From assembly GCF_007018905.1 (NCBI RefSeq), contig NZ_CP041402.1, positions 3,832,001-3,896,000 on the forward strand: DNA of 64,000 nucleotides. Reading direction: 5' to 3'. The DNA is from Tardiphaga sp. vice304 (GTDB taxonomy: Bacteria > Pseudomonadota > Alphaproteobacteria > Rhizobiales > Xanthobacteraceae). The notes under the pieces are model-generated. The model was not told where the DNA came from, did not search any database, and worked only from the letters and a program-made list of their open reading frames with translations. Shown here in pieces: positions 8,255 to 45,234 of this stretch. Position 1 is the stretch's first letter. Each line of letters begins with the position of its first letter. A program made the translations under genes and the position numbers.

Positions 8255-12454
<4,200 letters not shown>

Positions 12455-12568: not shown

Positions 12569-12581
12569 AGTCGCTGTCAGA

Positions 12582-16748
<4,167 letters not shown>

Positions 16749-28235: not shown

Positions 28236-28277
28236 TGGCAGGGGCGGTAGGGCTCGAACCTACGACAACCGGTTTTG
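28236..28277 (-). repeat. Left attachment site: copy of the tRNA-Trp 3' half
   Basis: 42 bases are identical to 45159-45200, which is the CCA end through the anticodon loop of tRNA-Trp. Identity stops sharply at 28278 (A here, G in the tRNA), so the anticodon and 5' half are absent. This is the direct repeat expected from site-specific integration into a tRNA 3' end. Confidence 0.93.
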
Positions 28278-28399
28278 AAGTTCGCCTCCCCTGATACTAG
28301 CTAGTAGCGTCCTGATCCGTTGAGCCTGAGTTACAAGGGTTTCGGCCATCTTGAAACCCGCTCTATTCCCGCTTTGTCCCAGCCCATCGCAGGCAGTTG

Positions 28400-28417
28400 G
28401 GTAGCAAAGCGGTAGCA
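28400..28417 (+). repeat. Left arm-type integrase site candidate
   Basis: GGTAGCA, 4 bases, GGTAGCA. The same pair with the same 11-base period occurs near the right end (45083-45100) and, inverted, at 37834-37851. It lies 123 bases inside the left repeat, where tyrosine-recombinase arm sites are expected. Confidence 0.5.
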
Positions 28418-28418
28418 C

Positions 28419-29936
28419 TTATTGCCCCATCCATCCTGCCGCAAAAAACCGGCGGCGACGGGGCTGGGCCTTTCGGTAAATCTGGTCGGCAAAGCGCAGC
28501 ATCATGATGGCGTAGCGGGTGGCCGAGATCAGATCGTCACCCTCTTTGACCACCTTGCCGTCCTTCCGATGGAAAAGCCGGAACTCTTCGAACCAATCGA
28601 GCAGCGTGCCGAATACCTTGAACTTCCCGGTTTCCATGCGGGTCAGCATATCCATTAAGCCGGCCTCGACGGACACCGAGCCGTCAACGAACTGCGCATG
28701 CGTTGGCAGCATGTTGAGGTGCTGAGCTGTGTATTGATCCGCCAACGCCACGCCAGCACCTTCTAGCGTCTCCCGCCGGCCATCTCGTGGCCACGCCCAA
28801 GGCAGCGCACCCCAGATCCTGATGGCGCCCGCGTGCACCACCGGGGTTGCCTCCCGCAGACGGTGTGCCTTGATCACGTAAACGATGTCCTGATCGGCAT
28901 CCCAAGCGAGCTCGACGGCAGCAAAGGGATGATCCCACCCGAAATCCATGCCGCCGATCCGGTGCCAGTGTTCGGGAATGTCAAAGGGCGCGACGGTGAT
29001 GGTATCTTCTGAAACCGGGAAGATGCGGCCAGAGCCTAAAATCGGGATGCCCTTAGCTCGAGCGTCCCTTTCATGGACAGGGTAGCTGGCAATGATCTTG
29101 GCGCGGGCTTCCTCGGTATAGTGCTCAGCCTCGTTGATCGTCATCTGCGTGATGTGGCGATCTGGCGACTTTTCCAGGAGGAAACGTCGGACAACCTCCG
29201 ACGCGCCCAGCAACGGCGTGAAGGTTAGCCATGTCGGCCCCTGCGTCACGTTTGTTCGGGTCAGGCCTTCCGTGTAAATGGCCGGCGGCGGCTCTTCGTC
29301 GAACCACAGCCAATGCAGCGTTTCGCCCTGCCACTTCTCGCGACCCTGTTCGTATGATTTCAAGCCAATGATGCTGTCGGCAGCCTGAGTGTCACCACCG
29401 CCGCCCCATTTAACGATGATCGTGTCCATCAGATCGGCAACGCCGCGAGCTGGCACGACTTCGCGGATGGCATCCTTTGGAATTGTGCCGGTGCCATGTT
29501 GGCCGACGCGGCCCAGGAGAATGCGCTGCGGGTTGTCGCGGAGCGTCAGTGCTGTGGGACTGCCCACCCACGAAACCGTTGGCTCATTGAACGTTGCGCC
29601 ATCCCACCAGTCCGGGTAGCGGCCGGTCGCATGCATTGCCGCCTCCGATCCGCCAGCCATCGTCTTGCCAAGCTGGTTGCCGGCCATGAAAAGCCGCTCC
29701 CGGTGCACTTTGCCAGCGGCGTGAAATGCACGCTGTTTGGGATAGGGCGAATAGGAGCGAAGGCGGTTTTCAATTAAGCGCCGGCTTTGCTCTGCCGCCA
29801 GTATCGCTTCGATCTTCTCCAGCTCCGGCAGATTTGATGCGTCGAATTTCGGCAAGGTATTCTGCAAGCTCTTCGTCTCCCATGCTTTCCAGGCGCCCAT
29901 CCTCAAGGATGAATTCCTTGGGCAGAACACTCGCAA
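28419..29936 (-). CDS. Phage terminase large subunit
   Basis: Up to 505 residues. DNA-packaging motor with ATPase and nuclease. Walker A is FMAGNQLGKTMAGG (about 84-97), with a preceding adenine-type motif YSPYPKQRAFH. Walker B is LHWLWFDEEPP (about 210). The nuclease domain starts at IGGMDFGWDHPFAAVELAWD and continues to a late acidic/His region (VKEGDDLISATRYAIMML). The reading frame from 29936 overlaps the small subunit by 167 bases; a TTG at 29855 (LPKFDASNLPELEKIE) is a more likely start and cuts the overlap to 86. Last gene of the leftward late operon, ending about 140 bases from the left attachment repeat. No portal gene follows, which is unusual. Confidence 0.85.
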   Translation of the reverse strand: MRVFCPRNSSLRMGAWKAWETKSLQNTLPKFDASNLPELEKIEAILAAEQSRRLIENRLRSYSPYPKQRAFHAAGKVHRERLFMAGNQLGKTMAGGSEAAMHATGRYPDWWDGATFNEPTVSWVGSPTALTLRDNPQRILLGRVGQHGTGTIPKDAIREVVPARGVADLMDTIIVKWGGGGDTQAADSIIGLKSYEQGREKWQGETLHWLWFDEEPPPAIYTEGLTRTNVTQGPTWLTFTPLLGASEVVRRFLLEKSPDRHITQMTINEAEHYTEEARAKIIASYPVHERDARAKGIPILGSGRIFPVSEDTITVAPFDIPEHWHRIGGMDFGWDHPFAAVELAWDADQDIVYVIKAHRLREATPVVHAGAIRIWGALPWAWPRDGRRETLEGAGVALADQYTAQHLNMLPTHAQFVDGSVSVEAGLMDMLTRMETGKFKVFGTLLDWFEEFRLFHRKDGKVVKEGDDLISATRYAIMMLRFADQIYRKAQPRRRRFFAAGWMGQ

Positions 29937-30129
29937 TCAGTTTCAGGTAATCCCTCGGGCTCTCCCGATAGACAATCTCGATGGCCGCTGCGCCCTTCTC
30001 CGCAAAGTGCTCCTGCAAGCCGACAACGAAATCAGCGTGCAGTCGATTGCGTGCGCCCTTCTTTCGCCCACCCCCGCTATTACCAGCCACAAACTGACCG
30101 GCCTTGATCGGCTTGCTATCGTCGCTCAT
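29770..30129 (-). CDS. Probable phage terminase small subunit (DUF5681-like)
   Basis: 119 residues. Starts MSDDSKPIKAGQFVAGNSGGGRKKGARNRLHADFV, the GxGGRxKGxxN pattern of phage small-terminase-like DUF5681 proteins, which recognise the packaging site. A helical C-terminus follows (DEELAEYLAEIRRIK). It overlaps the end of the preceding 701-residue gene by 14 bases and the start of the large subunit. Position directly before terL supports the role. Confidence 0.7.
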   Translation of the reverse strand: MSDDSKPIKAGQFVAGNSGGGRKKGARNRLHADFVVGLQEHFAEKGAAAIEIVYRESPRDYLKLIASVLPKEFILEDGRLESMGDEELAEYLAEIRRIKSAGAGEDRSDTGGRAKPALN

Positions 30130-32221
30130 CGTTGCTTTCTCCGTCTTTCGAACGCCTGCTTTCGTTTGCGATGTTCGAAATCCTGCCGAGCACTGAGATA
30201 TATTGAGTGCTTCCGCGCGGAAGCCTCGCCAATTGCCGAAAGCGGTCGGCAGCCTCCGGTGAAGTCAGGAGGTCGGCGAGTTCGTCAACGTTGCGGCCAA
30301 CGTTCCAGTTCTGAATTGTATTGGTGATTTTTCGAGGAAGTGACAGACCGGCGCCGCCGACAACCTGGGCGGCATTATTAATTGCACCACCGGACTTCAG
30401 ATCCTCAACCCCCGGGATTTTGAAAGCTGTCCGCGAGCCCGTCGCCTGTCTGTATTGCTGCGCTTCCATCACGTTCAGCAGTTCATTGAAGCCCTGCCAT
30501 ACGGTTTGACCATTCGGCAGCGCTAGGACAGAAGCCTCCAGGTTAGCCGCCTGTTGCTGATTGCCGCGAAGTGTAGCCGCAAACTTCGCGCCACCGGATT
30601 GATTGGGACCACCAGATACCAATCGCTGTGCAGCCTCGTTGAAGGTCATCTCGGCATGGGAGCGGACCAAATCGTTCGCAACACCGGGGCGCTGACGGGA
30701 AAGAGCGCGCATAGTCTGCGCTATTTCATCTTGCGAATTCGGCAGCGGGTTAGCCGGAAATAGCGCTTCAACCGCTGCTTTGGTGGTCGTGTCCTGTCCG
30801 GCAATCTTGCCTATCGGACCATCCAGTACCGGCTGAAGATATTGCTGTCGCAACCGCGTCTGATTTGCCAATGCCGCCTGATATGAAGACGGACCATTGG
30901 CTGATGCATGTTCCGAAGCAACTGCAAGATCCTTGATGTCGCCGCCAAGCCTGCCCGTCACCGACGCGACCGCCTGGCTTGCCTGTGGGTTTAATGGCTG
31001 GGCAGCATTCTGCGACCGCTGTTCCAGTTCTTTGGCAACGGCATCATACATTCGCACCGAACGATCTGGCGCATTTTGGACCATTGCATTCAGCGCGGGG
31101 TCGCGGCGGATATTATTGAACGTTTCCGCAAAAAGCGGATCGCCCATCATAGCCGCGTGAACTTGGGGCGGGACAAGATGCTGGCCGCCGGCATCGTACA
31201 TTGGCCGCGTGTAGTTGTTGATCGCCGAGCGGATCTGAGTAACGACGTTTTCGCCGGCAGCACCGGCAGTATGCCCGATCTTTGATGGATTAGGATTCGG
31301 TGAAGCAATGGTATCGAGCGTGCGACCAACAGCGGCTTCGTTCTGCGCCGGCCGCTGCGAATAGAACTCCTTCATTCCGCCCATACCCTCGAGGGTATGC
31401 TGCAAGTCGCCAAGCTTGGTTGATCCATTCGTGATCGACTGAAGCGCCTCAGGACGGCTGATCGGAATGCCCATCTGCTGAGCGCGATTGAAAAGCTGCT
31501 CTGCGGCGTCGATCTGCGGCAAGGTCGCCCGGCCTACTGCGGACCGGACCATGTTTTCAGCTGTGTTAGGTCGCATTGCGATGGCGGCGCCAACTCCGCC
31601 TGCGAGCCCGCCTGCAATGCGAGCCGGGGTCTCAAGTGAGCTTCCTTCAAAAGTCTGTCCGCCGATCTCGGAGAGAGCACCTGGGACCGCACCGAATGCC
31701 ACAGCGTTGCGCATGATGTTGGCGGGCGCTCCGATCATGGCGCCGGGGACAAACTCTGCGGCGCGGCTCGCAATCTTGCCGGCGCGCGTAGTCGGCTCAT
31801 AGGCGGGCCCGGTGACAGTCTCGATACCGTGTTGAATGTTACCTGTGCTGAGCGCTTCAGATGCGCCCGGAAAGGTCACGTTCTGTCGTCGTTCTACCAC
31901 ACGACGGGCCTGATCCTCGGGCGTATCCCAGTTGGCAAGCTGCTCGCCCTTATTCGCAAGCCAGTTGATGCCGGCCGGCAAGGTGTCCGTCACCATGCCG
32001 ATGGTGCCTGCAGTGCCACGCACCAAGCCGCCGCCGATGCCCTTGACTACATCTTCAACTTGCGAGCGGGCGGCTGAGGGTTTGGAGTCGCCAGCATTGC
32101 CAGGCTTGACGCCGAGCGAGGACGCAATCTGAGAAACAAATGCGTTCTGCTCTTGAGGCGATAGCTTCAAAAACCGGTCGTTGACTTCGACTTCCTTGCC
32201 CTGAATTTCCAGTGTCGCCAT
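30116..32221 (-). CDS. Large virion-associated protein, possible DNA-ejection protein
   Basis: 701 residues from ATG at 32221 (MATLEIQGKEVEVNDRFLKLSPQEQNAFV). The start overlaps the previous stop as TAATG. The N-terminal motif of about 40 residues resembles short modules found in phage internal proteins. A Gly/Ala-rich, partly hydrophobic stretch (residues about 60-215: GIGGGLVRGTAGTIGMVTD, AGGLAGGVGAAIAMRP) follows, then a long helical region rich in Gln, Asn and Arg. No enzyme motif is seen. Large helical proteins in series upstream of terminase in this element recall podoviral ejection proteins such as P22 gp7/gp20/gp16; that comparison rests on order, size and composition only. Confidence 0.6.
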   Translation of the reverse strand: MATLEIQGKEVEVNDRFLKLSPQEQNAFVSQIASSLGVKPGNAGDSKPSAARSQVEDVVKGIGGGLVRGTAGTIGMVTDTLPAGINWLANKGEQLANWDTPEDQARRVVERRQNVTFPGASEALSTGNIQHGIETVTGPAYEPTTRAGKIASRAAEFVPGAMIGAPANIMRNAVAFGAVPGALSEIGGQTFEGSSLETPARIAGGLAGGVGAAIAMRPNTAENMVRSAVGRATLPQIDAAEQLFNRAQQMGIPISRPEALQSITNGSTKLGDLQHTLEGMGGMKEFYSQRPAQNEAAVGRTLDTIASPNPNPSKIGHTAGAAGENVVTQIRSAINNYTRPMYDAGGQHLVPPQVHAAMMGDPLFAETFNNIRRDPALNAMVQNAPDRSVRMYDAVAKELEQRSQNAAQPLNPQASQAVASVTGRLGGDIKDLAVASEHASANGPSSYQAALANQTRLRQQYLQPVLDGPIGKIAGQDTTTKAAVEALFPANPLPNSQDEIAQTMRALSRQRPGVANDLVRSHAEMTFNEAAQRLVSGGPNQSGGAKFAATLRGNQQQAANLEASVLALPNGQTVWQGFNELLNVMEAQQYRQATGSRTAFKIPGVEDLKSGGAINNAAQVVGGAGLSLPRKITNTIQNWNVGRNVDELADLLTSPEAADRFRQLARLPRGSTQYISVLGRISNIANESRRSKDGESNDERR

Positions 32222-33690
32222 TATTTCACCCGCCAATCAATGCCGTTGATGCTTCCGGTCGGTGCTGCACTCTGCAGGAACGGTTCTGCTTGTTTCCGCA
32301 AATCACCAAAGCGATCCATCTTTGAAACACGCTGTCCCCTGCCGAACTCGAACTCTTCAAAGCTCTTGCTCTTGTTTGTCGGGTCATCCTTCCATGACTG
32401 ATAGTCTAGCATTCGCTCGATATTGGCGTTCTGGGTGCGGCGGGCAGCCTCAATCATGATTTTGTTAGCACGGGTATCGTTGCCGAGTTTCGGGAAAATA
32501 TCTGTCAGAAATTGACGATCGTTGTCACTGAAGTTGTTAGACGGAAATCCACCTGGACCGAGCTTTCCAATGACCAGTTCGTTGACGAGCGACTGCACCG
32601 CCTGGGCAGTGCCCACTTTCTCAGGGTTAAGACCGAGAGACTTTGCAAAATCGTCGTTCACGCCGAGCGACTTTGCCCATGCAGAGATCGTCATCCGCCC
32701 CGGTTCAAGCTTGCCCTGATCGATCTGATCAAGCAACGTCTGCACTCTTGTGAGACCCGCCAAATTGGTGGTGGCGCTCTGGGCAGCACCGAACATTGAA
32801 GCGCGGCGTTCGCCGGCTGCCTTACCGGCGGCCTTTGCTTCCTCCGTCTCGCCTTTCTGGTCGATGTTGGTGGTTACATCGGTCTTGCTCGCGCGACGTA
32901 GCTGCATTTCAAGTTCAAGCGGCGTACCCTGAAAGCCGCTGACGCGCGCCAGCTCTTGCAGATGCTTCACCTTTTCGTCGGGCTTGCTTCCGTCCAGCGC
33001 TCTCGTGAGCAGAGTTTTTGCAACCTCCCGATCAGCGGCAGGCAGGTGGGGGTGCATTGCTGCCTGCACCAGCGTTGGAATGTGAGAAGCGTTCAAGCCC
33101 TCGAAATTGTTAGAAGGCGACGGTGCAACAGTCTGGGCCGGCATTCCGCCAGCCTGAACCATGCCTTGCGGGGGTTGACCAAGCGAAGATGGGGATGCAC
33201 GGCCCGCCTGGTTAGGCAAAGGATCGTACAAGCCGGCAGCAACGGCCTCATCATCGCCCCATACTTTCGAAGACGATGCAACAGGCGCTCTGCCGCCAAG
33301 TGGCAGGGGTGCTATTGACCGCTCTCTCGCAGGGGTGGGGCTGACGGGGGGTTCTGCCCCACCCGATGGCGGTGCGCCCGGATTATTGCCGCCAAAGATG
33401 CCTCCGATGCTGGTGGCAAATCCCTGGTGCGCAGCACGCTCGTCGTCGAGCCGCTTCCTTTCATCTGCAAGGGCAAGGAACTTTAGAGTGCTTCCGATAT
33501 CGCCCATACCCGCTACTTGACCGGCGGCGGTCCGATAGTCGATTGATCCGTTCGAGAGCTGCTGGCCGAGCTCAGCCAACTTCTGCTCATTTTGAGATTT
33601 TTTATAGACCTGCCCAAGGTTAGCCAACGACGTGAAATCGAGCGACTGAGGTGCGGCGTACGAAGGAAGCTGAAGGCTGTTTATCGGCAT
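32221..33690 (-). CDS. Virion-like helical protein, possible DNA-ejection protein
   Basis: 489 residues from ATG at 33690 (MPINSLQLPSYAAPQSLDFTSLANLGQVYKKSQ), overlapping the upstream stop as TAATG. An N-terminal helical part with repeated small-residue stretches is followed by a Pro/Gly-rich linker (residues about 105-190) and a long helical C-terminal region (ELEMQLRRASKTD, AKAAGKAAGERRASMFG, TRVQTLLDQIDQG). FGLNPEKVGTAQAVQSLVNELVIGKLGPG resembles passages in phage internal virion proteins. Function is inferred from context only. Confidence 0.6.
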   Translation of the reverse strand: MPINSLQLPSYAAPQSLDFTSLANLGQVYKKSQNEQKLAELGQQLSNGSIDYRTAAGQVAGMGDIGSTLKFLALADERKRLDDERAAHQGFATSIGGIFGGNNPGAPPSGGAEPPVSPTPARERSIAPLPLGGRAPVASSSKVWGDDEAVAAGLYDPLPNQAGRASPSSLGQPPQGMVQAGGMPAQTVAPSPSNNFEGLNASHIPTLVQAAMHPHLPAADREVAKTLLTRALDGSKPDEKVKHLQELARVSGFQGTPLELEMQLRRASKTDVTTNIDQKGETEEAKAAGKAAGERRASMFGAAQSATTNLAGLTRVQTLLDQIDQGKLEPGRMTISAWAKSLGVNDDFAKSLGLNPEKVGTAQAVQSLVNELVIGKLGPGGFPSNNFSDNDRQFLTDIFPKLGNDTRANKIMIEAARRTQNANIERMLDYQSWKDDPTNKSKSFEEFEFGRGQRVSKMDRFGDLRKQAEPFLQSAAPTGSINGIDWRVK

Positions 33691-34763
33691 TAGCCAACAC
33701 TCCATGGAGAGTTATTGAAAAACATTCCGCTGCCGCTGCCGGGAGCATTCGCAGCCAATCGCGCGAACAATCCGCCGGAGTTGCCAGCAGACGCCGGTGT
33801 GTTGCCTAATCCGCTGAAGCCTGATCCGGTGAGACTTCCGCCGAAGGGATTTCCCCCGGCAGCCAAGGTCGCAAGCGACATTCCAGCACCAAGAAGATTT
33901 TTGGCACCGGCCGCTTTGCCGGCGGCCTCTGCATTGTTTGCTTGCGCGTTCCCGCTCGTCACGGAGCCGGCCAGATTGGTCAAATCTGAAGCATTTTGAC
34001 TGTACAAACCCGCCTGCCCCGCGCCGAGCGAAGCCAGATTTCCTGCAATGGCCGAGTTAGCGCCAGCCTGCCCTTGAGCCACGCTGCCAGCCACGCCCAC
34101 GCGATTTGTGGCGTCCTGCCCGTATAGCCCTGCGATCTGCCCATTGACGCCAGCGCGGCCCGCTGCGGCTCCTGACGTGGCCTGCAATTCGGGCGACATA
34201 AACCCGCCCAGCTTGGTCTGCCAGTTGCCGTATTCCTGGTTGGCGAGACCCTGCCCGAACTTCATCGCGTCAATGTCGGCGTTACCGGAATTGAGCATCC
34301 CGCCAGCCGCGCGACGGCGGTTAATAGCGTCATTGCCCTGATCGACCTGAAACTGGTAGCCCGGCCCGGCGTGGAAGGAGTCAACCGCGTGTTGATTGCC
34401 CGCCGCGCCATTGGCGCCCAGCGAGTCCATATAGAGCGACGTGCCCTGCCCGTATTTCTGGCCCAGCGCTGCCAACGGATCATAATCGGACCGCGCCTGA
34501 CCGAGCGCACCAAGCGAGGACGAAAGCCCCCTATCGAGCGCGCCGTTTGCCGTGGCGCCGTAGCCGGACCATACGTCCCGGTTCTGCCCAAGCTGGCTAT
34601 TAGCATCGCCGTATCCGGTGCCAAGCGAACCAAGCGATTGCGTCAGGCCGTTGCCAAGGTTCTTCGTGCCGTCGGTCTGATACTGTGAATAAAGCGCGCG
34701 GTTTTTGTCTGCCGCTTCCTTTTCGGCAGCGCCGCCGAAAAGAGTATCCCAAAAGGAAGCCAT
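33690..34763 (-). CDS. Gly/Ala/Asn-rich virion-like protein
   Basis: 357 residues, very low complexity. MASFWDTLFGGAAEKEAADKNRALYSQYQTDG is followed by long tracts with repeating GxxxG/SLG/AQG patterns and few charges. The first residues (SFWDTLFGG) look like the start of phage internal proteins that insert into membranes. No catalytic motif. It is the third member of a set of tightly coupled genes (one-base overlaps between 33690 and 32221), suggesting stoichiometric co-translation. Confidence 0.55.
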   Translation of the reverse strand: MASFWDTLFGGAAEKEAADKNRALYSQYQTDGTKNLGNGLTQSLGSLGTGYGDANSQLGQNRDVWSGYGATANGALDRGLSSSLGALGQARSDYDPLAALGQKYGQGTSLYMDSLGANGAAGNQHAVDSFHAGPGYQFQVDQGNDAINRRRAAGGMLNSGNADIDAMKFGQGLANQEYGNWQTKLGGFMSPELQATSGAAAGRAGVNGQIAGLYGQDATNRVGVAGSVAQGQAGANSAIAGNLASLGAGQAGLYSQNASDLTNLAGSVTSGNAQANNAEAAGKAAGAKNLLGAGMSLATLAAGGNPFGGSLTGSGFSGLGNTPASAGNSGGLFARLAANAPGSGSGMFFNNSPWSVG

Positions 34764-34765
34764 GA

Positions 34766-35425
34766 TTACGCCTCCTCGTTCGGGATGGCGTCATGGTCGA
34801 TATAACCGTCCTTGTCTCGACCGTGCTGATCACGCTCGATTTCGTCGCTCTGGTCGTAATTCCAAGTCAGCTTTTCGGACGCCTTATTCGGCCCGTCCGA
34901 ATTCTTCGAAAGCCACTTCTCCAGGATGTTTTCTTGGCTTGGATCGCGATCATGACGGCTGGCGAAAACCTCGCTTGCGGCGGCGTCATAGTCGCCATCG
35001 GCAGACTTGTCGTCCGACACTTCCAAACGGCCGACATGCTCCCGCGACAACTCGGCATATGTCTGTGCGTCGATCTTTTGCGACAACCATGCTTCGTCCA
35101 ACGCATCCGCCTTGACCTTATGGAGGACTGCGGCACGTTCCTGCTCAACGTCGGACCCGTTGCGGCTGTCCTCATGGCTGGCCAAGGCCATCAGTTGATC
35201 AAGCCGGCCGTCGTTCATCATTTCGTGGAAATCATCGACCGGCAGCGCCGAGATATACTGTCCCCAAAGGTGGCCCTCTAGGTCGGCCATCTCTGCCTTG
35301 GACAGTTTGCCCGCCTTATGCATCTTCGCTGCATAGGCGACAGTTGATTCAATTTCCCTGATTGCAGAGGCAAATTCAGGGTTCACTTTCGACTGAGAAA
35401 GCTCACGTAAAACCTGGGGGTGCAT
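34766..35425 (-). CDS. Acidic phage-like protein of unknown function
   Basis: 219 residues from ATG at 35425 (MHPQVLRELSQSKVNPEFASAIREIE). Highly charged and helical, with a strongly acidic C-terminal half (DEIERDQHGRDKDGYIDHD). It could be a scaffold, chaperone or head-associated protein; nothing decides between them. A longer frame to 35482 exists, but its first 19 residues are Arg/Ser-rich filler and overlap a GC hairpin. First gene of the late operon, about 170 bases from a promoter-like pair. Confidence 0.6.
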   Translation of the reverse strand: MHPQVLRELSQSKVNPEFASAIREIESTVAYAAKMHKAGKLSKAEMADLEGHLWGQYISALPVDDFHEMMNDGRLDQLMALASHEDSRNGSDVEQERAAVLHKVKADALDEAWLSQKIDAQTYAELSREHVGRLEVSDDKSADGDYDAAASEVFASRHDRDPSQENILEKWLSKNSDGPNKASEKLTWNYDQSDEIERDQHGRDKDGYIDHDAIPNEEA

Positions 35426-35594
35426 AGGCGCGCTCTTCCGGGCGCCAGACTGATCTGGCGAGCGCCCTAAACGGCGGCGCAATGTTCCGAAAGAGGTTTT
35501 TGCGGTTGCCTCTCCGCTTAGCCCGTTAACGAGGGCCAGATCGAAAACGCCAAACCAGAGGGCGCGTCTCTATGAATGCAAATCAACTAACAAA

Positions 35595-35623
35595 AATCTA
35601 ATGCTGATTTGCGAAATAGTCAA
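35595..35623 (-). promoter_or_regulatory. Predicted promoter of the element's late operon
   Basis: On the minus strand TTGACT (35618-35623), 17 bases, TAGATT (35595-35600), in an AT-rich patch between the lipoprotein gene and the 219-residue gene. A GC hairpin in the leader (about 35440-35466) follows. This would drive the six genes from 35425 to 28419. Confidence 0.55.
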
Positions 35624-35663
35624 GAAACTGCACGCCAACTAATTGCCTATCCTAGAAGCGCTC

Positions 35664-36041
35664 CTACGTACCCGGCGGGCGCTGACCCTGAAATTGTATC
35701 CCGCATTTCTTCATGACGCTGGCCTGTTCGATGGCGACCATTTGCCCCTTCATCTGCGCAAGCTCGGCTGCTGTCTGCTTATCCCCGCCAACAAAGAACG
35801 CGGCAGGCCAGAAAATGACCACGGCGGCTGCTGTCGCGAGAGTGTCATTGGTGCGTTTCTGGTCCTGCGCGCCAGACAATGACGCTGCGCGCTGAGAGAT
35901 CCCTTGAGCCTCCATGGCGAGCTGCGGGCAGGTGTATTGCTGGTACATGACCGGCGAAACGTAGGCCGCTGTGATGTCCGACGAAGCGGACGCGCAGCCA
36001 GCTAGAACGGCAGCAATTGCCGGTACCCATAGAATCCGCAT
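35664..36041 (-). CDS. Small lipoprotein
   Basis: 125 residues. MRILWVPAIAAVLAGCASA: signal peptide with lipobox VLAGC, so it is lipidated at Cys16. The remainder (YVSPVMYQQYTCPQLAMEAQGISQRAASLSGAQDQKRTNDTLATAAAVVIFWPAAFFVGG) includes a second hydrophobic segment and resembles a lipoprotein family common in alphaproteobacterial genomes and prophages. Possible roles are superinfection exclusion or envelope change after lysogeny; this is inference. Confidence 0.75.
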   Translation of the reverse strand: MRILWVPAIAAVLAGCASASSDITAAYVSPVMYQQYTCPQLAMEAQGISQRAASLSGAQDQKRTNDTLATAAAVVIFWPAAFFVGGDKQTAAELAQMKGQMVAIEQASVMKKCGIQFQGQRPPGT

Positions 36042-36134
36042 TTTTGAAAGAACTCCCCAGACCCGGTGGTATCCAAGCGCAACCTGGGGAAGTTGGCAAG
36101 CGATGACGCGCGAAAGCGCCCCGATGGGTGGGAT

Positions 36135-36230
36135 TTAACGGACAATCATAAATGAGATTGCGACGGAGACAATCACCAGCACAAATGCGGCGATGATCCA
36201 CTTCATGTCGCGGCGCTCGTTATTGTTCAT
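36135..36230 (-). CDS. 31-residue single-span membrane peptide
   Basis: MNNNERRDMKWIIAAFVLV then IVSVAISFMIVR. A charged N-terminus of 9 residues leads into one hydrophobic helix. Its ATG overlaps the stop of the ribbon-helix-helix gene as ATGA, with the purine run GAAAGAGAA before it, so it is probably translationally coupled. Shorter than most gene-finding cut-offs. Function unknown. Confidence 0.55.
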   Translation of the reverse strand: MNNNERRDMKWIIAAFVLVIVSVAISFMIVR

Positions 36231-36424
36231 TTCTCTTTCGCCTTCAGCCCGGTCTCGACTAGTCGGCGAATGGCTTCTGGCTGCGACGGTATTGGCCGCT
36301 GGGCGGCTCGCCATCCATCGATCTGCGCTGCCAATTCGGACTTTATCCGCACGCCGATCGTACGTCCGGTGCCAGTTGCAGGCCGCCCGCGCTTTTTTGC
36401 TATCTTTTTATCTTGTAAGGTCAT
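36227..36424 (-). CDS. Ribbon-helix-helix-type DNA-binding protein
   Basis: 65 residues from ATG at 36424: MTLQDKKIAKKRGRPATGTGRTIGVRIK, then SELAAQIDGWRAAQ and PEAIRRLVETGL. The basic AT-hook-like RGRPATG followed by a predicted beta strand (TIGVRI) and two helices is typical of CopG/Arc-like regulators. It may control neighbouring element genes. A frame extension to 36502 lacks the motif. Confidence 0.7.
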   Translation of the reverse strand: MTLQDKKIAKKRGRPATGTGRTIGVRIKSELAAQIDGWRAAQRPIPSQPEAIRRLVETGLKAKEK

Positions 36425-36506
36425 GATTTTATGATAGCTTAAAAGCAAGCCGAGGGGAAGCTGCAACTCCTCCTCGGCTCTAACCCAACCATGAGGATGC
36501 ATCCCA

Positions 36507-37210: not shown

Positions 37211-37284
37211 TCCGGCTCTATGCCGCTAGGTTCGTGCTGCGGGCCAGCATGAGGCTTGCGAGGCGGGCGGCAACCTTGTTTTAA
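37201..37284 (+). CDS. Possible 27-residue Arg-rich peptide
   Basis: MRLIRLYAARFVLRASMRLARRAATLF overlaps the end of the preceding gene by 10 bases and ends before the terminator at 37345. Amphipathic and basic. Could be chance; listed because of its position. Confidence 0.25.
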   Translation: MRLIRLYAARFVLRASMRLARRAATLF

Positions 37285-37344
37285 CCACCCGCTGGCATCC
37301 TGACACCAAGCGGGCTTCGTACTCATACCGCGACTACAGACTAA

Positions 37345-37375
37345 GCCCGCCGGCCTTCTCACCCGGCGGGTTTTC
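37345..37375 (+). terminator. Intrinsic terminator of the rightward pair
   Basis: CCCGCCGG and CCGGCGGG with an 8-base loop, followed by TTTTCT on the plus strand. Confidence 0.85.
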
Positions 37376-37380
37376 TACGT

Positions 37381-37743
37381 CTAAGCCTCAAAGGGCGGCG
37401 CGGTTCGCTCGTACGAGAAGGGATGGGCTGTATTAAACCCACATCTTGGACATTCGAACACCGGGCCAGTCTTCGGCCGGCCAGCATGCATTCCGACCGT
37501 CAACATCGGCGTCGGCGGGAATTGGCACTTGCACAGATCATATCCGAGTGCCTTGGCAACCTCTGCCTCGCCCAGTTTCGCATCCCTTTCCGCTTGCTCA
37601 AGCGTTGCCGTTATCGCGGCGCTCTTTGCATCGTCAGGCAGAAGATCCTTGGCGTCCTTTGCGAGACCGATGGCAGCACGGAGTGTGTCAAAACCGGCCT
37701 TCGCGTAGCCGAGACCGGCAACGATTGTCATTGGATCAGCCAT
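37381..37743 (-). CDS. Hypothetical phage-type protein with a C-terminal cysteine cluster
   Basis: 120 residues. MADPMTIVAGLGYAKAGFDTLRAAIGLAKDAKDLLPDDAKSAAITATLEQAERDAKLGEAEVAKALGYDLC is helical; the C-terminus has CKCQFPPTP and ECPRCGF, four cysteines spaced like a small zinc ribbon. Similar helical proteins occur in phages of alphaproteobacteria, but I cannot name a function. Confidence 0.6.
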   Translation of the reverse strand: MADPMTIVAGLGYAKAGFDTLRAAIGLAKDAKDLLPDDAKSAAITATLEQAERDAKLGEAEVAKALGYDLCKCQFPPTPMLTVGMHAGRPKTGPVFECPRCGFNTAHPFSYERTAPPFEA

Positions 37744-37791
37744 GAAACTCCCCGAACCGAATTGATAAACCGGTAAACGCCATCTTCTAAG

Positions 37792-38151
37792 CTATTGATC
37801 CGACTCGCAATAGTCGTCGTCCAAAGCCCCATTTGCTACCGGATTGCTACCAAAGATCCTGAAAACGACGCCACCAGGCCGATCACGCCGCACCCTTGTT
37901 GCCACTCTCGACGCCGCCCGAACGATTGCCCAGCGGTGCTTCCGGAGTGGTTCGTCCTCCATCCTGGGATAACACCAGCGCGCCAGTTCGGCCGTCGTCA
38001 TCTCGCGATCAGGATAGGTCATGAAGGCGTACCAGATGCGACGCTGAAGCCTGCCGCGACCGCGCAAGTCAACAAGCGCGGGGCCGCTCGCGTTATCACC
38101 GGCCGGCTGTGGCCCTCTATTCCCCACCTTGCCCCCTCTTCTGCAGTCCAT
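37792..38151 (-). CDS. Hypothetical protein, possible winged-helix DNA-binding
   Basis: 119 residues if started at ATG 38151; a GTG at 38127 is an alternative that leaves only an 11-base overlap with the upstream gene. RRIWYAFMTYPDREMTTAELARWCYPRM looks like the helix-turn-helix part of a replication-initiator or regulator, followed by a basic wing (RAASRVATRVRRDRPGGVVFRIFG). The C-terminal codons contain the inverted GGTAGCA pair at 37834-37851. Confidence 0.55.
   Translation of the reverse strand: MDCRRGGKVGNRGPQPAGDNASGPALVDLRGRGRLQRRIWYAFMTYPDREMTTAELARWCYPRMEDEPLRKHRWAIVRAASRVATRVRRDRPGGVVFRIFGSNPVANGALDDDYCESDQ
37834..37851 (-). repeat. Internal copy of the GGTAGCA pair
   Basis: TGCTACC, 4 bases, TGCTACC: the reverse complement of the end-proximal pairs, same spacing. 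It lies inside the coding sequence of the preceding gene. It may be a third recombinase or regulator site, or chance. Confidence 0.35.
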
Positions 38152-38425
38152 CCAGCACCTTTTCGAACGCCATCTGAACCGCGTCTCTCTCAGCTTCCGC
38201 CCGTTCCCTGCGCCCTCGTTCTTCCCGCAGCTCCCTCTTGAGCTTCCTGAAGACAGCCGGCGGCATGCCCTTCAATTCGCCTGCCGCACCTGCCGCACTT
38301 GAGGTGCGGCAAAGGCTAGGCAAGTTAGGCACTGCCTCTGCCGCACCACCACCCCCCTTAGGGGTGTGGGGGTGGGGCGCGGCAAGACCTGGCGATAAAT
38401 CAAGGTGCGGCAAATCAGTCTTCAT
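38117..38425 (-). CDS. Hypothetical basic helical protein
   Basis: 102 residues. A Pro/Gly/Ala-rich N-terminal half is followed by a charged helix (KLKRELREERGRRERAEAERDAVQMAFEKVLDGLQKR) that should form a coiled coil. The ATG overlaps the helicase stop by 11 bases, so it is coupled to it. Not recognised. Confidence 0.5.
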   Translation of the reverse strand: MKTDLPHLDLSPGLAAPHPHTPKGGGGAAEAVPNLPSLCRTSSAAGAAGELKGMPPAVFRKLKRELREERGRRERAEAERDAVQMAFEKVLDGLQKRGQGGE

Positions 38426-39746
38426 TTGCCACCTGCACGAACTTTTTGATCATCCGCTTTTCGTCCAAATCTTCGACGACAACGAGACTGCCTGCTGCGA
38501 GCCAGTATTTAACCAAGCCGGTCGTTTTGGCCTTGTCAGCTTTGTTGTCGATGTTGAGAGCGAGTGCCTTGGCGACAGCGCGGCCAACCCAGTCTTTGGC
38601 TTGGTTGCTTTCCCTCCATTTCCCAGCCCGGATGATTGCCGCCGCCTTGTCGAAGTCAGCTCCCGTGACGCCTGCCGTGTGATCCGGCCACATCCAGTTC
38701 TCCACCACGCCAACACTGTCCCCGTCGTAATGCAGCGGACCCTTGCTGCCATTCCCAAGCTCGATGGAAACGATGCGGTACCAATCCTTCCCCTCAGCCG
38801 GCGGAGCGAGATTGGCCTTCCCGTTTTCAACCTTGAAATAGGCCCGGAAGTTCTCAACGCCCGCCTTGGCAGCCTCGTCTGCGGTCATTTTATTGATGAT
38901 TTGCGCGGATCGGACAGCCGCTAGAAGTGCCACGGCGCCGCGACCGTCTTCGACTGTGGCCTCCGCTCCGTGTGTCTTTTTAGTATGGTGTATCAGCTCG
39001 ATTGCGCTGTTTGTGGTGCCAGCAATGCTGGTCCACTTCTTGGCGACGAGGTCCATCGCCATGTTGTCGTTTTCGGTGACGCGATGGGACGACACGAAGG
39101 GATCGATTATCATCACGTCGATCTGGTTGGCGAAAATCGTATCGACAACGGCATTGACGACTGGGGTGGCAATTTTAGCGCCGGATTTTGAATCCTGATC
39201 AGCAATGACGATTTCCTGATCGCGACCACTATCGAGGAAAAGCCAACCTTCGAGTTCGGAGGCCTCGATGCCGTAGCGAAGACGTATCGCCGCGACACGG
39301 CGCTCCGTTTCTTCAAGAGGGTCTTCGCCGTTCCAATACCAGACACGACAACGCTGGCGTGGAGCGATCCCTAGGAGTGCCCGGCCGGTCGCAAGCGCAA
39401 TTGCCTCAGTCAGAGCCAAGATTGACTTTCCAACGCCGCCGGCTGCAAACTTCGCGGAGCCGTACTTGCGGATCAAATGCGATCCGTAGAGAAACTCCCG
39501 TCGGGGAATTTCCTTTGGGTCGCGGCCAACGAACGGGGTGGCCGTGATCTTGTTAGGCTTCGGCGGCAAGATCGCTGGTACGGCGTCTGGGTACTTATCC
39601 CACCATCCCCGGATGATCTCCGGATCGGTACTGGCCTCGTCTGCTGGCACGAAGGGAGCGCCAGTGCGCGCGTGAGCGGGAAGCACAAGAAAACCATTTG
39701 CGGCCGCGTTGAGCGCGTCGAAAAGGTAAGCTGACTTTTCCTTCAT
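38415..39746 (-). CDS. RepA-like AAA ATPase/helicase with a vestigial primase-polymerase N-terminus
   Basis: 443 residues from ATG at 39746 (MKEKSAYLFDALNAAANGFLVLPAHA). The first ~65 residues look like the beginning of a phage bifunctional primase-polymerase (GFLVLPAHARTGAPFVPADEASTDPEIIRGWWDKYPDAVPAI), but the catalytic part is missing and the ATPase begins at once (FLYGSHLIRKYGSAKFAAGGVGKSIL, Walker A). Walker B is IDVMIIDPFVSSHRV; a later IELIHHTKKTHG follows. The fold is that of RepA/AAA_25 hexameric helicases used in phage and island replication. The frame extends 18 codons further into the IS21 end; that extension is an artefact of the insertion. The IS lies 18 bases upstream of the start codon and may have separated it from its promoter. 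Confidence 0.8.
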   Translation of the reverse strand: MKEKSAYLFDALNAAANGFLVLPAHARTGAPFVPADEASTDPEIIRGWWDKYPDAVPAILPPKPNKITATPFVGRDPKEIPRREFLYGSHLIRKYGSAKFAAGGVGKSILALTEAIALATGRALLGIAPRQRCRVWYWNGEDPLEETERRVAAIRLRYGIEASELEGWLFLDSGRDQEIVIADQDSKSGAKIATPVVNAVVDTIFANQIDVMIIDPFVSSHRVTENDNMAMDLVAKKWTSIAGTTNSAIELIHHTKKTHGAEATVEDGRGAVALLAAVRSAQIINKMTADEAAKAGVENFRAYFKVENGKANLAPPAEGKDWYRIVSIELGNGSKGPLHYDGDSVGVVENWMWPDHTAGVTGADFDKAAAIIRAGKWRESNQAKDWVGRAVAKALALNIDNKADKAKTTGLVKYWLAAGSLVVVEDLDEKRMIKKFVQVANED

Positions 39747-39919
39747 GCGCACGCCTCCGCCAACTGTAGCGCGACAATCAGGATGAGAATCCCGCGACAA
39801 TCAGGATGAGAATGCGCCGCTGCTGGGGTGACGAAGGGAGGGCGTAGCCCGACCGGAGGCACCCCAGCAGCGGCGTGTCGGCCCGAAGGGGCCTCATTGG
39901 CGGTAACGGCGGCTGGTAA

Positions 39920-42267
<2,348 letters not shown>

Positions 42268-42321
42268 TTGTCGCTCCACGACAATCAACTCTACAGCACG
42301 CGATTATCGCTTGCGTTATCG

Positions 42322-42903
42322 TCAGGCCGCGACAATCATCCCCACGCCGCGACCGCTAAATTGCCATCCTGATTGTCGCGCTTCCCATCCAGATTGACGC
42401 GCTACAGCCAACGGAATGCAGCAGAAGATCGGCAATTCCTTTTTGCCTCTCACCTTTTCGATACGCTGCCGCCAAGCTTCCTGTTGGTGAGGCAGCGACT
42501 CGATCAGAAGCACGTTCTTTCGGGGCTTTACAGCCATCGTGGCGGCATAACGATAAGGAAACGGATCAGGACCGCTGGTGATAAGAACACAGTTGTCGGC
42601 CGCCAGAATGGCGGCATCCAACGCTGCCGCGCCGAAAGCTTGCGGACCCCATGCAAAATGCATATCGTCGCCGATGTAGACAATCCACGGATTGCGGGGT
42701 AGCTCAAACGTCTCGCAACCTTGCGGAACGAGCGCCAAAGAAACGGCGAACGTAGCCACGGCGTCAAAGAGTGGAAAAAGATACTGCGAGCGGACAGCCG
42801 GATTTTTTTTGATAAATTCTCGCGTCTTATCGGCTGAATTTGAAATCGACACCGTCTCCGGCAGCAACACCGTCATTCCGTTTGCTTCAAAGATTATCGA
42901 CAT
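42322..42903 (-). CDS. Element gene of unknown function, 3' end replaced by IS21 sequence
   Basis: 193 residues as it now reads: MSIIFEANGMTVLLPETVSISNSADKTREFI ... KKELPIFCCIPLA, then about 30 residues encoded by the IS21 end (VARQSGWEARQSGWQF...). Removing the IS and one copy of GCCAAC restores ...CCIPLAEACA followed by TGA, overlapping the helicase ATG. So the original protein lost only its last four residues. The protein has a hydrophobic middle (LFDAVATFAVSLALVP) and resembles nothing I can name. It was translationally coupled to the helicase. Confidence 0.6.
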   Translation of the reverse strand: MSIIFEANGMTVLLPETVSISNSADKTREFIKKNPAVRSQYLFPLFDAVATFAVSLALVPQGCETFELPRNPWIVYIGDDMHFAWGPQAFGAAALDAAILAADNCVLITSGPDPFPYRYAATMAVKPRKNVLLIESLPHQQEAWRQRIEKVRGKKELPIFCCIPLAVARQSGWEARQSGWQFSGRGVGMIVAA

Positions 42904-42908
42904 TAGGA

Positions 42909-43097
42909 CTAGCCCTCCGGCTTGAGTGCGACAAGGCCGGCAGCGCCGATCTCAGTTATCCATGCAGCAGCGTCTTCGGCGCTGATGAGCCCGGCTTTCA
43001 GGGCAACGCCAATTGAGTTGATCTCTGTCTCGAAGAGTTTGGCGCGGATGCTCCCGACGCGAAGCGCGGACAGCATGTATTCTGTTCGATCGCTCAT
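42909..43097 (-). CDS. Hypothetical 62-residue protein
   Basis: MSDRTEYMLSALRVGSIRAKLFETEINSIGVALKAGLISAEDAAAWITEIGAAGLVAL. All helical; the pattern LKAGLISAEDAAAWI resembles small phage proteins with a short two-helix motif. It overlaps the upstream 58-residue gene as ATGA and is followed 5 bases later by the next start. Function unknown. Confidence 0.6.
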   Translation of the reverse strand: MSDRTEYMLSALRVGSIRAKLFETEINSIGVALKAGLISAEDAAAWITEIGAAGLVALKPEG

Positions 43098-43270
43098 GCG
43101 CGGCCCTCCCCAAAGACCAGAGGGGCAATAATGGCAGCCATCGCAGCGCTGATGGCGCAGCGGCGGGTAATTCTGGATACTTGATATTCGCGGGTGGCTG
43201 CGCTATGTTCCGAATTGTCCTGGCAGACATCATTCGAAATCGGCTCGCCCTCAAAGCGGGCCTTTTTCAT
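43094..43270 (-). CDS. Hypothetical 58-residue protein
   Basis: MKKARFEGEPISNDVCQDNSEHSAATREYQVSRITRRCAISAAMAAIIAPLVFGEGRA. The start overlaps the excisionase-like stop and the end overlaps the next start, both as ATGA. The C-terminal half is hydrophobic and may be one membrane span. No motif recognised. The double coupling is the reason to accept it. Confidence 0.55.
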   Translation of the reverse strand: MKKARFEGEPISNDVCQDNSEHSAATREYQVSRITRRCAISAAMAAIIAPLVFGEGRA

Positions 43271-43464
43271 GCTGCCTCCATGCCGAGTTGCCGACGCAGT
43301 GCGGCGGTCGGCACTTTGAGCAACCGGCCTACCTTAATGGTCGGAAAGTCTCCTCGCTTCGCAGCGTCGTAGCTGCCGTTCCTACTCAATCCAAAACAAA
43401 TACGACCTACGTCGGGTACGTCGGCGGTGGGGCTGGAAAGTAACTGAGACAGTTCCTGATTCAT
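43267..43464 (-). CDS. Excisionase-like helix-turn-helix protein
   Basis: 65 residues from ATG at 43464. The core DVPDVGRICFGLSRNGSYDAAKRGDFPTIKVGRLLKVPTAALRRQLGME is the MerR-like HTH_17/excisionase fold: helix, turn, Tyr-Ala-Ala, and the wing FPTIKVGRLLKVP. Such proteins direct excision or regulate island genes. First gene of the leftward operon, with a good promoter at 43516-43543. Confidence 0.75.
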   Translation of the reverse strand: MNQELSQLLSSPTADVPDVGRICFGLSRNGSYDAAKRGDFPTIKVGRLLKVPTAALRRQLGMEAA

Positions 43465-43486
43465 CTTCGTGGCCTCCGGTCTATTT

Positions 43487-43572
43487 AAAGCACGCACAAA
43501 TCAGTGCGATAATTTAAAATAGGCCTTGAGTGCCCCTTGTCAAGGTTTAAAGCACGTGATATTTAGTGCTTT
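43487..43572. promoter_or_regulatory. Divergent overlapping promoters with operator-like repeats
   Basis: Minus-strand promoter: TTGACA (43538-43543), 16 bases, TATTTT (43516-43521). Plus-strand promoter: TTGTCA (43537-43542), 17 bases, TATTTA (43560-43565). The two -35 boxes lie on the same bases. AAAGCAC occurs at 43487-43493 and 43549-43555; the second is paired with GTGCTTT at 43566-43572 and brackets the plus-strand -10. This layout is suited to repression by the Arc-like or excisionase-like protein and to mutually exclusive transcription. Confidence 0.6.
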
Positions 43573-43597
43573 ATAGTACAGAAATGGATTAGGTAGG

Positions 43598-43927
43598 ATG
43601 GCAGACAAAGAAAAACGTCCACGAGGCCGGCCGGCTGTCCCGGCAGCCGACAAGAAGCGTCGCAATTTCACCTTTCGTGGCACCGACGAACTTCACGAAC
43701 ATATGTCGGCTGCGGCAGCAGCGAGCGGACGCTCGATGAGTGAAGAGATTGAGTGGCGGCTCGGCCAATCGTTCTTCATCGACTTTGTTGTGAAACGCGC
43801 GACCGATACCGCCGTTGCCAAAACCTTGGCTTACGTTGACGATTTGCGGGCCAAGGAAGACGCCGAGCGCTCTCGCCCACGATATTCACTTGCCGATCTG
43901 CACAAACTTGGAGGGGAAGAAAAATGA
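43598..43927 (+). CDS. Arc-family ribbon-helix-helix regulator
   Basis: 109 residues. MADKEKRPRGRPAVPAADKKRRNFTFRGTDELHEHMSAAAAASGRSMSEEIEWRLGQS is a classic Arc motif: a basic arm, a beta strand (NFTFR) and two helices, with the S-E-E-I-E-x-R-L signature of Arc DNA-binding proteins. The C-terminal half is extra and helical. It overlaps the integrase start as ATGA, so regulator and integrase are co-expressed. Confidence 0.85.
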   Translation: MADKEKRPRGRPAVPAADKKRRNFTFRGTDELHEHMSAAAAASGRSMSEEIEWRLGQSFFIDFVVKRATDTAVAKTLAYVDDLRAKEDAERSRPRYSLADLHKLGGEEK

Positions 43928-45087
43928 AGGGCTCTATTCGCGAACGCTCGCCCGGCCACTGGGCAATCATCCTCGATCAGCGCGACGCCGCCACCGGCCA
44001 GCGCAAGCGCAAGTGGCACAGTTTCGCCGGCACCAAACGGCAGGCCCAGGTCGAATGTGCCCGCCTGATTTCCGAGCTGAAGGGCGGCAACTATCTGGAG
44101 CCCAGCAAAACCACCGTCGCTCAGTTCCTCGATCGCTGGATTGACGACATAAAGGCCCGGGTTTCGCCCCGGACCCACGAGCGGTACGAGGAGATTGCCA
44201 AGAAAAACATCGTCCCGCTGATCGGCGGCACAGTTCTATCCGCGCTCCGGCCGGCTGCGATCTCTGCGGCATACACCAAGGCGCTAGCCGAAGGCCGCCG
44301 GGACGGATCGGGCGGACTGTCCCCTCGCACCGTCCACCATATGCATAGGATCTTGAAGCAGGCGCTATCGCAGGCGGTTCGCTGGGAAATCCTCTCCCGG
44401 AACCCGGCGGACGCGGTGGACCCGCCCAAGGTCGAAAAGAAGCCCATGCTGACCTATGGGCTCCCTGAAACGGTTGACGTGATCGAGGCCATGAAGGGCA
44501 CTGACATGTTCGTGCCGGCGCTGCTGGCCGTCCTATGCGGCATGCGACGCGGCGAGATTGCCGCCCTTCGGTGGAGGAACGTGGATCTTGTCGCCGGACA
44601 GATATCGGTTGCCGAGAGCGCCGAGCAGACTAAGGCCGGCGTCCGGTACAAAGTCCCTAAGAGCGGCGCCGGGCGCACCCTAGCGCTCTCTGGCACCGTG
44701 GTAGACGAACTGAAGGCCCACCGCGTCCGGCAAGGCGAAGGCCTCCTGAAGTTGGGGGAAAAGCTAACTGACGCCAGCTTCGTCTGCGCCCAGGCTGACG
44801 GGTCCGCGCTCAAGCCGCGCGCCATCACCCAGGCATGGGTCAAGCTCATCTCTGGCAGTGAGGTGATTCGGCGCCGGTTCCATGATCTGCGGCACGCACA
44901 TGCGACGCACCTGCTCCAGTCCGGCGTCCATCCCAAGGTCGCCAGCGAGCGGCTGGGCCACAGCAACATCGGGATCACGCTGGATCTGTATTCGCATGTC
45001 ATCCCCGGCATGCAGGAAGATGCCGCGTCGAGGGTGGACGATGCGTTCAAACTGGCGAAAAGCGGCAGAAAGAACCCGATTGGGTAG
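43924..45087 (+). CDS. int: Tyrosine-type site-specific integrase
   Basis: 387 residues. N-terminal Arm/SAM-like domain (MKGSIRERSPGHWAIILDQRDAATGQRKRKWHSFAGTKRQAQ ... FLDRWIDDIKARVSPRTHERY) followed by the catalytic domain: Arg I in LLAVLCGMRRGEIAALRW (about 205), Lys region VPKSGAGRTLALS, HDLRHAHATHL (His-x-x-Arg, about 320), GHSNIGIT and the nucleophile Tyr in LDLYSHV (about 355). All five catalytic positions are present. It lies 71 bases from the tRNA-Trp 3' end, in keeping with its target. Confidence 0.95.
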   Translation: MKGSIRERSPGHWAIILDQRDAATGQRKRKWHSFAGTKRQAQVECARLISELKGGNYLEPSKTTVAQFLDRWIDDIKARVSPRTHERYEEIAKKNIVPLIGGTVLSALRPAAISAAYTKALAEGRRDGSGGLSPRTVHHMHRILKQALSQAVRWEILSRNPADAVDPPKVEKKPMLTYGLPETVDVIEAMKGTDMFVPALLAVLCGMRRGEIAALRWRNVDLVAGQISVAESAEQTKAGVRYKVPKSGAGRTLALSGTVVDELKAHRVRQGEGLLKLGEKLTDASFVCAQADGSALKPRAITQAWVKLISGSEVIRRRFHDLRHAHATHLLQSGVHPKVASERLGHSNIGITLDLYSHVIPGMQEDAASRVDDAFKLAKSGRKNPIG

Positions 45088-45100
45088 CATTCCGGTAGCA
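45083..45100 (+). repeat. Right arm-type integrase site candidate
   Basis: GGTAGCA, 4 bases, GGTAGCA, overlapping the last codons of the integrase gene and lying 58 bases inside the right attachment repeat. Same orientation and spacing as the left pair at 28400-28417. Confidence 0.5.
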
Positions 45101-45158
45101 ACGCCACACGGAAGAACATTTGCAGACCAAGATTATTTAGCTTTATCAATGAGATGAC

Positions 45159-45234
45159 TGGCAGGGGCGGTAGGGCTCGAACCTACGACAACCGGTTTTG
45201 GAGACCGGTACTCTACCAACTGAGCTACACCCCT
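45159..45234 (-). tRNA. tRNA-Trp (CCA anticodon), right attachment site
   Basis: 76 bases including an encoded CCA. Acceptor AGGGGTG pairs with CGCCCCT (one G-U). D-arm GCTC...GAGT and T-arm with GTTCGAGCC are standard. The anticodon loop is CTCCAAA, giving CCA for tryptophan. Bases 45159-45200 are duplicated at 28236-28277, so this intact copy was restored by the incoming element. It lies between tuf and (before insertion) secE. Confidence 0.97.

Follow-up and report, generated by a model that had tools for sequence, protein, structure and literature searches.

A tRNA-integrated element of Tardiphaga that carries both terminase subunits and podophage-type ejection genes is probably a phage satellite

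The window analysed here, 64,000 nucleotides of contig NZ_CP041402.1 of Tardiphaga sp. vice304 (positions 3,832,001 to 3,896,000), holds an integrated element bounded by attachment (att) repeats. It probably represents a hitherto unrecognised family of phage satellites, whose members carry their own small and large terminase subunits (TerS and TerL) together with virion-tip genes and would use the head of a podophage. A sequence-only reading of the window had set a satellite against a prophage that lost its head genes; of the two, the satellite is favoured, the more so for the recurrence of the element in other genomes, while the borrowing of a capsid and the packaging into it, like the helper and the role of the marker protein g06, are what we infer. 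Read from its right end, the element opens with an integrase and a ribbon-helix-helix protein on the plus strand and continues on the minus strand with g18, g17, g16, a 193-aa protein, the AAA_25/Prim-Pol helicase and g12, this first part being interrupted before the helicase by an insertion sequence (IS) that we take to be IS21-like. The second part of the minus-strand series comprises accessory genes, g06, three ejection-type proteins (g05, g04 and g03), TerS, TerL and the left repeat (Table 1).

The block formed by g12, g06, TerS and TerL was found in the window, in six of 265 genomes of Bradyrhizobium (another genus of the same bacterial family, searched with g06 and TerL profiles) and in the metagenome contig L003. 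The Bradyrhizobium carriers include B. cosmicum (G379) and Bradyrhizobium sp. MOS002 (G483). Across the order, the g06 profile matched one of 397 genomes, namely the window's own, and a single-sequence g06 search of 391 same-family genomes gave four matches. Scanning genome contigs for g06 returned one (MOS002) and scanning viral contigs two (L003 and the record with the MOS002 element); records L004, L087, L088, L103 and L115 all hold this one element, which was counted once. The TerL profile matched 11 of the 265 Bradyrhizobium genomes, the six g06 carriers at 1105–1135 bits and the five others at no more than 630 bits, so that the satellite type of TerL occurs in exactly the six g06 carriers. 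Among the five lower-scoring loci, L218 is a podoprophage with the head-closure gene Hc3 and g05; capsid- and fibre-like genes were seen in L220, while in L217, L219 and L221 the profiles used showed TerL alone. In L219 (G507) TerL is split into two open frames, 6273–7031 and 12289–13071, separated by some 5 kb in which a tRNA-Trp gene lies.

A maximum-likelihood tree of 85 TerL sequences placed the eight satellite rows in one group (support 100/100) with no other row within, which points to their common descent. The 11 rows of the sister group are metagenome contigs, and both groups combined (19 rows) have a support of 100/99; the 23 rows with a recognised portal on their contig fall elsewhere in the tree; the 54 other rows are unlabelled, their contigs being maybe too short or their portals too divergent. 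No portal-size open reading frame (ORF) was seen after TerL in the sister-clade contigs, where the downstream sequence spans 0.3–6.9 kb and one ORF runs off its contig. These short flanks, the run-off ORF and a 691-codon ORF before TerS in L005 are the reasons why the sister clade was not counted as satellites. The contigs nearest to the satellite TerL clade (L005–L013, L015, L023 and L028; the TerL of L013 is split and lies outside the tree) may represent a second satellite lineage; g12 is also present in L013 and L015, and g16 in L008, L009 and L012.

The terminase genes announced by the sequence-only reading are both there. TerL was identified through Pfam, and the window copy is 80–82% identical to those of the seven other family members. 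Among PDB sequences the family profile hits chain 4dkw_A ('Large terminase protein', E 3.6e-56), which we take to be the P22 gp2 nuclease domain. More distant relatives are the TerL of Rhizobium phage RHph_N3_2 (58% identity over 88% of the query) and those of an enterobacterial phage group, presumably P22-like (about 47%). TerS has no Pfam family and its phrogs matches are solely to families without an assigned function; it is named for its position and for its similarity (36% identity) to the protein that precedes TerL in RHph_N3_2. The TerS-TerL order is kept in all eight family members. Six plasmid records, Rhizobiales replicons, contain DNA matches of 65–70% to TerL/TerS.

In five relatives (L093, L094, L095, L103 and L105) the integrase, g18, g16, helicase, g12, fibre, g06, TerS and TerL stand in one order, the start of which runs from the integrase through an HTH_17-like g18 and g16 to the helicase; the two helicases scanned, that of the window and that of one relative, are AAA_25 proteins. 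The sixth Bradyrhizobium element (L104), located at tRNA-Asn, shares this block from g16 onwards. Neither its integrase nor its g18 had a match to the family profiles, and the integrase is likely the 486-aa ORF adjoining the left repeat; one of 42 relatives' proteins scanned against the libraries is a phage integrase. The att repeats of the relatives measure 39–41 nt and derive from tRNA-Ser in five (one being split into two 21-nt blocks), and the repeat at tRNA-Asn measures 54 nt. In the window's element, unlike these relatives, no fibre precedes g06 and the ejection trio stands between g06 and TerS; it also has another helicase and just 138 bases between the TerL stop and the att repeat, where the six relatives have 4.7–5.3 kb of variable genes. 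Such variable regions would suit a chromosomal defence island, or a domesticated transfer agent, built from phage parts, a very improbable account of the family: PADLOC matched none of the 42 relatives' proteins scanned (one lipoprotein and 41 of the 77 unassigned ORFs with 85 aa or more), no capsid gene was found for a transfer agent, and an integrase and att repeats are present.

Several observations concern single relatives. In L003 the order is a g04 C-terminal piece, fibre, a g03 N-terminal piece, g06, TerS and TerL, followed by an integrase in the opposite direction. By our own reading the gap between TerL and this integrase would hold the 3' half of a tRNA-Cys, a stretch where ARAGORN called no tRNA; convergent TerL and integrase genes at a half tRNA-Cys would correspond to the arrangement of an excised circle (an attP-like junction), a concatemer or a tandem array. 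In L103 a second integrase (18156–19310) lies immediately outside the right att of the MOS002 element, and the locus yielded no call of a whole tRNA, which suggests islands in tandem. Just past TerL, L094 (5117–6016) and L104 (12106–13059) carry accessory proteins of about 300 aa that are 57% identical, belong to phrog_5990 and, by eye, have starts resembling those of proteasome-type Ntn hydrolases. Most fibre proteins (e.g. L094 8752–9756) open with an apparent signal peptide, again by eye.

No portal, capsid, scaffold or lysis match was obtained for the 20 ORFs chosen from the window's element, in agreement with the sequence-only reading, and iterated portal, scaffold and capsid profiles gave no match in the eight members (L003 being a partial contig). 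None of the six relatives has a stop-to-stop ORF above 513 codons, recognised whole portal ORFs having about 600–800 codons, and the 42 relatives' proteins scanned had no match to a portal, capsid or other head family in the libraries. Relatives with a full head module, which would speak against a satellite, were sought in the 265 Bradyrhizobium genomes, and the six elements recovered showed neither a portal nor a capsid gene in these three limited tests; for the capsid, the apparent absence is read from profiles and library scans. The members are att-bounded units with their own integrase (that of L104 unmatched by the family profile) in which no complete virion gene set was found. Neither the capsid, portal and connectors of a capsid-forming phage-inducible chromosomal island (PICI) nor a portal and capsid following TerL, as in a podophage prophage, were recognised.

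The seven integrated units are of similar size: 14,220, 14,057, 14,918, 14,649, 14,958 and 14,209 bases, and 14,306 for the window's element without its IS (mean 14,474, standard deviation 365), about one third of the 43 kb of L083 and RHph_N3_2. The 16 contigs below 20 kb with a g06 hit, all of 15,037 bases or less, are weakly in line with this unit size. Ratios of non-synonymous to synonymous substitution rates (dN/dS; Nei-Gojobori, least diverged pairs) were 0.047–0.114 for TerL and 0.098–0.231 for g06 (the 8 least diverged of 28 pairs each), 0.047–0.075 for the integrase in six Bradyrhizobium pairs and 0.149–0.337 for the fibre (7 of 28 pairs), nearly all g06 and fibre pairs being near saturation (dS >1). 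The same holds for TerL between the window and L003 (0.111), g03 between the window and L188 (0.17) and g05 between the window and L083 (0.29). By these ratios TerL is under strong purifying selection.

These data bear on two other explanations. One is that the elements are defective prophages, decaying but still excising remnants of an ancestral podoprophage that lost its head genes. The virion genes that are present are indeed podophage genes, and several points that weigh against a satellite would be expected of decay: g04 and g03 are truncated in L003, the window's unit has an IS next to its helicase and could be inactive, and a resident helper was not detected in the seven carrier genomes, where the podophage Hc3 family was found in none (the control being positive in one of 14, E. 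coli) and a portal match to query A5 in none, a search that had no positive control. Also weighing against a satellite are the higher integrase dN/dS between the window and L103 (0.36), the restriction of the size uniformity to seven elements, six of them from one genus, and a weak match of the window g06 to phrog_17210 (function not assigned, E 0.0011). The coverage of the relatives' ORFs was partial, six more of the 77 (fibres, helicase) having been library-scanned and the remainder being mostly short or antisense. Moreover, in other Bradyrhizobium prophages, ORFs of 622–774 codons that directly follow TerL escaped the portal profile, which is why the ORF-size test weighs most for the portal. 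Against decay, eight members keep the same block in two host genera and a metagenome; the seven integrated ones retain att repeats and a narrow size; TerL, g06 and the integrase are open and under purifying selection; the sites used (five tRNA-Ser, one tRNA-Asn, one tRNA-Trp and a probable tRNA-Cys junction) indicate continued movement; and the MOS002 copy of g06 has no match in 50,697 phage records. The uniform size, the layout between att repeats and the low dN/dS are better explained by a maintained satellite than by separate events of decay, and the defective prophage appears unlikely.

The other explanation, rather unlikely in our judgement, is ordinary PICI-type mobilisation in which TerL, the fibre and the ejection genes are interference or superinfection-exclusion factors, or passengers. 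According to the text available of two reports, PICIs possess an integrase, an AlpA-type regulator, a primase/helicase and packaging in helper particles (PMC6092414, PMC11773190). The virion-tip genes are exchanged among members of the present family, as accessory genes would be. The strong constraint on TerL (dN/dS 0.05–0.11) and its place in one module with TerS and g06 in eight of eight members argue against this explanation.

The three large proteins between g06 and TerS (357, 494 and 706 aa) are of the ejection type and neither portal nor capsid. The sequence-only reading had likened them to podoviral ejection proteins, a likeness borne out by the ejection genes of podophage contig L083, whose order is identical. 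In L083 (43,108 bases), which has TerL (phrog_38), portal (phrog_156), major head protein (phrog_334) and Hc3 (phrog_578) genes, homologues of g05, g04 and g03 and then a tail fibre follow Hc3; as portal and capsid are encoded there by genes of their own, upstream of the trio, neither function was assigned to it. Unlike the satellite elements, L083 carries portal and capsid genes and a TerL of another family; the complete phage RHph_N65, which shares a g03 homologue (30.7% identity over 86%), likewise has a portal. The order Hc3, g05, g04, g03, fibre is common to L083, L111 and L188, whose g03 homologue is 61% identical to that of the window. Hc3, a g05 homologue and a fibre occur in the same order in nine more contigs (L108–L110, L112–L114, L116, L118 and L121), in which the genes between g05 and the fibre had no match to single-sequence g04 and g03 profiles. 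Within the trio, neighbouring frames overlap by 16 nt, and g05 alone has a named library hit. The g03 profile found no match among PDB sequences, and relatives of g04, g03 and g05 occur in one, five and five of the 50,697 named phage records, respectively.

The best family marker turned out to be g06, a protein that the sequence-only reading had left unnamed. Searching 5.8 billion proteins returned 37 g06 proteins, and all those with an organism name are from Bradyrhizobium. The L003 and L104 copies show SHOCT-like Pfam domains below the cut-off (E 0.031 and 0.07) and no phrogs match, the L103 copy has no Pfam match, and the g06 profile matched no PDB sequence. Homology to a phage scaffold was considered and rejected: when its profile was compared with scaffold candidates from L083 and RHph_N3_2, the probabilities were 0.9% and 0.3%. 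The gene adjoins TerS in the seven other members, the trio standing between the two in the window. A role as a capsid-size or assembly factor would be a guess. In practice, g06-TerS-TerL offers a marker block for finding satellites within the nitrogen-fixing symbiont genus Bradyrhizobium.

At the boundaries, the att repeats are a direct repeat of 45 nt with one mismatch; the exact 42-bp repeat of the sequence-only reading therefore has to be replaced by this longer one, which contains a shorter exact core. The right copy corresponds to the 3' part of tRNA-Trp, and positions 28,233–28,280 at the left match the tRNA-Trp of three same-genus genomes without the element at 98%. From repeat start to repeat start the element measures 16,923 bases, and subtracting the IS leaves the roughly 14.3 kb proposed earlier. 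In the three genomes without the element the tRNA-Trp and the adjoining gene, presumably tuf, are retained and different DNA flanks the tRNA, and searches of the 17 other same-genus genomes recovered neither g04 nor g06; the site is therefore variable and the element an insertion. An ORF in the left flank was considered as SecE and rejected, its translation being unlike SecE.

Of the early genes, the integrase is a tyrosine recombinase, in keeping with the integration genes proposed before, and "RepA-like helicase" was a fair label for the 461-aa protein, which combines AAA_25 with a short Prim-Pol stretch. This helicase had no match to the profile of the relatives' helicases. It keeps only the first third of the Prim-Pol domain, and the IS sits right at its start. 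In g07 we read a lipoprotein signal.

Table 1. Features of the Tardiphaga element, with positions in the window
Feature	Position	Strand	Evidence
Left attachment repeat	28236..28280	.	partial copy of the 3' part of tRNA-Trp; pairs with 45159–45203
TerL, large terminase subunit, P22 type	28419..29816/29936	-	Pfam Terminase_6N E 8.3e-27, Terminase_6C E 2.2e-18
TerS, small terminase subunit	29770..30129	-	overlaps TerL start; position and likeness to RHph_N3_2 protein
g03, ejection-type protein 3, ~703–706 aa	30116..32236	-	880-aa homologue in L083: two blocks, 43% and 52%
g04, ejection-type protein 2, 494 aa	32221..33705	-	37% to 514-aa protein of L083, same place in module
g05, ejection-type protein 1, 357 aa	33690..34763	-	phrog_598 'DNA ejection' E 4.5e-6; 39% to 255-aa protein of L083
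g06, family marker, helical protein	34766..35425	-	AF2 model of moderate confidence (pLDDT 69), ten helices
g07, small lipoprotein-like accessory protein	35664..36041	-	phrog_13472; 75% identical copy in Bradyrhizobium element L103
g09, small regulator	36227..36502	-	phrog_4738 transcriptional repressor E 1.9e-6
g12, conserved backbone protein	37792..38151	-	50–78% identity in seven relatives
AAA_25 / partial Prim-Pol replication helicase, 461 aa	38415..39800	-	Pfam AAA_25 E 9.7e-33
Inserted IS	39766..42382	+	terminal inverted repeats; IstA 39953–41461, IstB 41458–42267
g16, conserved backbone protein	42909..43097	-	profile match E 2e-27
g18, HTH_17-type small regulator/excisionase candidate	43267..43497	-	HTH_17 weak, E 0.026 (window); E 1.8e-7 (L095 copy)
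Ribbon-helix-helix protein	43598..43927	+	Pfam Arc E 0.0014, under cut-off; L105 copy 60% identical
Tyrosine integrase	43924..45087	+	Pfam Phage_integrase E 1.5e-20; 57–58% identity in five Bradyrhizobium elements
Right attachment repeat	45159..45203	.	inside tRNA-Trp 45159–45234, minus strand

A life cycle compatible with this gene content can be proposed. In a cell where a podophage is growing, the element would excise through its integrase and the small regulator, and the helicase would replicate it to concatemers. Its own TerS-TerL would dock on the portal of the helper and package the satellite DNA by a pac-type mechanism into helper heads, which could be either small (a redirection by g06 would again be a guess) or full-size with about three units. 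The resulting particles would incorporate the ejection proteins or fibre of the satellite, and lysis would be left to the helper. As the trio and the fibre belong to a single podophage module, they would most simply derive from recombination with helper-type phages, and their swapping suggests that satellites may alter the delivery of the stolen particle. More tentatively, the family might invert the strategy of the capsid-forming PICIs, supplying the motor and the virion tip while stealing head and portal only; it would then redirect packaging and re-arm the particle, its members swapping podophage-derived ejection and fibre cassettes.

Among known satellites, the P4-like gene set includes Sid, Delta and Psu, and we know of none with TerS and TerL that lacks a portal or capsid; nor was a description of this combination found in the open-licence text available. 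The satellite families known in 2024 are listed in PMC11389934. EcCIMP1, the helper-mobilised PICI of phage Kapi1, has the same tRNA integration, integrase, AlpA-type regulator and primase/helicase, but it measures 19,963 bp and its authors found no identifiable terminase or capsid genes (PMC11773190), whereas the present family has TerS and TerL in 14.1–15.0 kb. Capsid-forming PICIs share both terminase subunits; unlike the elements described here, in which no portal or capsid was found, they encode capsid, portal and connectors and need helper tails only, as far as the available text goes (PMC10690885). PICIs are usually about one third of the helper size (PMC6092414, in part), a proportion shared by the SaPI-type PICIs, some of which have their own TerS and some capsid-size control; the sections available mention the small terminase subunit only and no ejection or fibre genes, unlike the present family (PMC6092414, PMC10690885). 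The satellite prophage AH14b, at 16.8 kb roughly a third the size of its 55-kb helper, has its own primase, and packaging of trimers into full-size heads has been inferred for it; its authors could identify neither a terminase nor structural genes, again unlike the present family (PMC4936722). Within these accounts, satellites thus have no terminase, the small subunit only, or both subunits together with a capsid. Both subunits without a portal or capsid would imply a foreign motor acting on the portal of the helper, which makes motor-portal compatibility directly testable.

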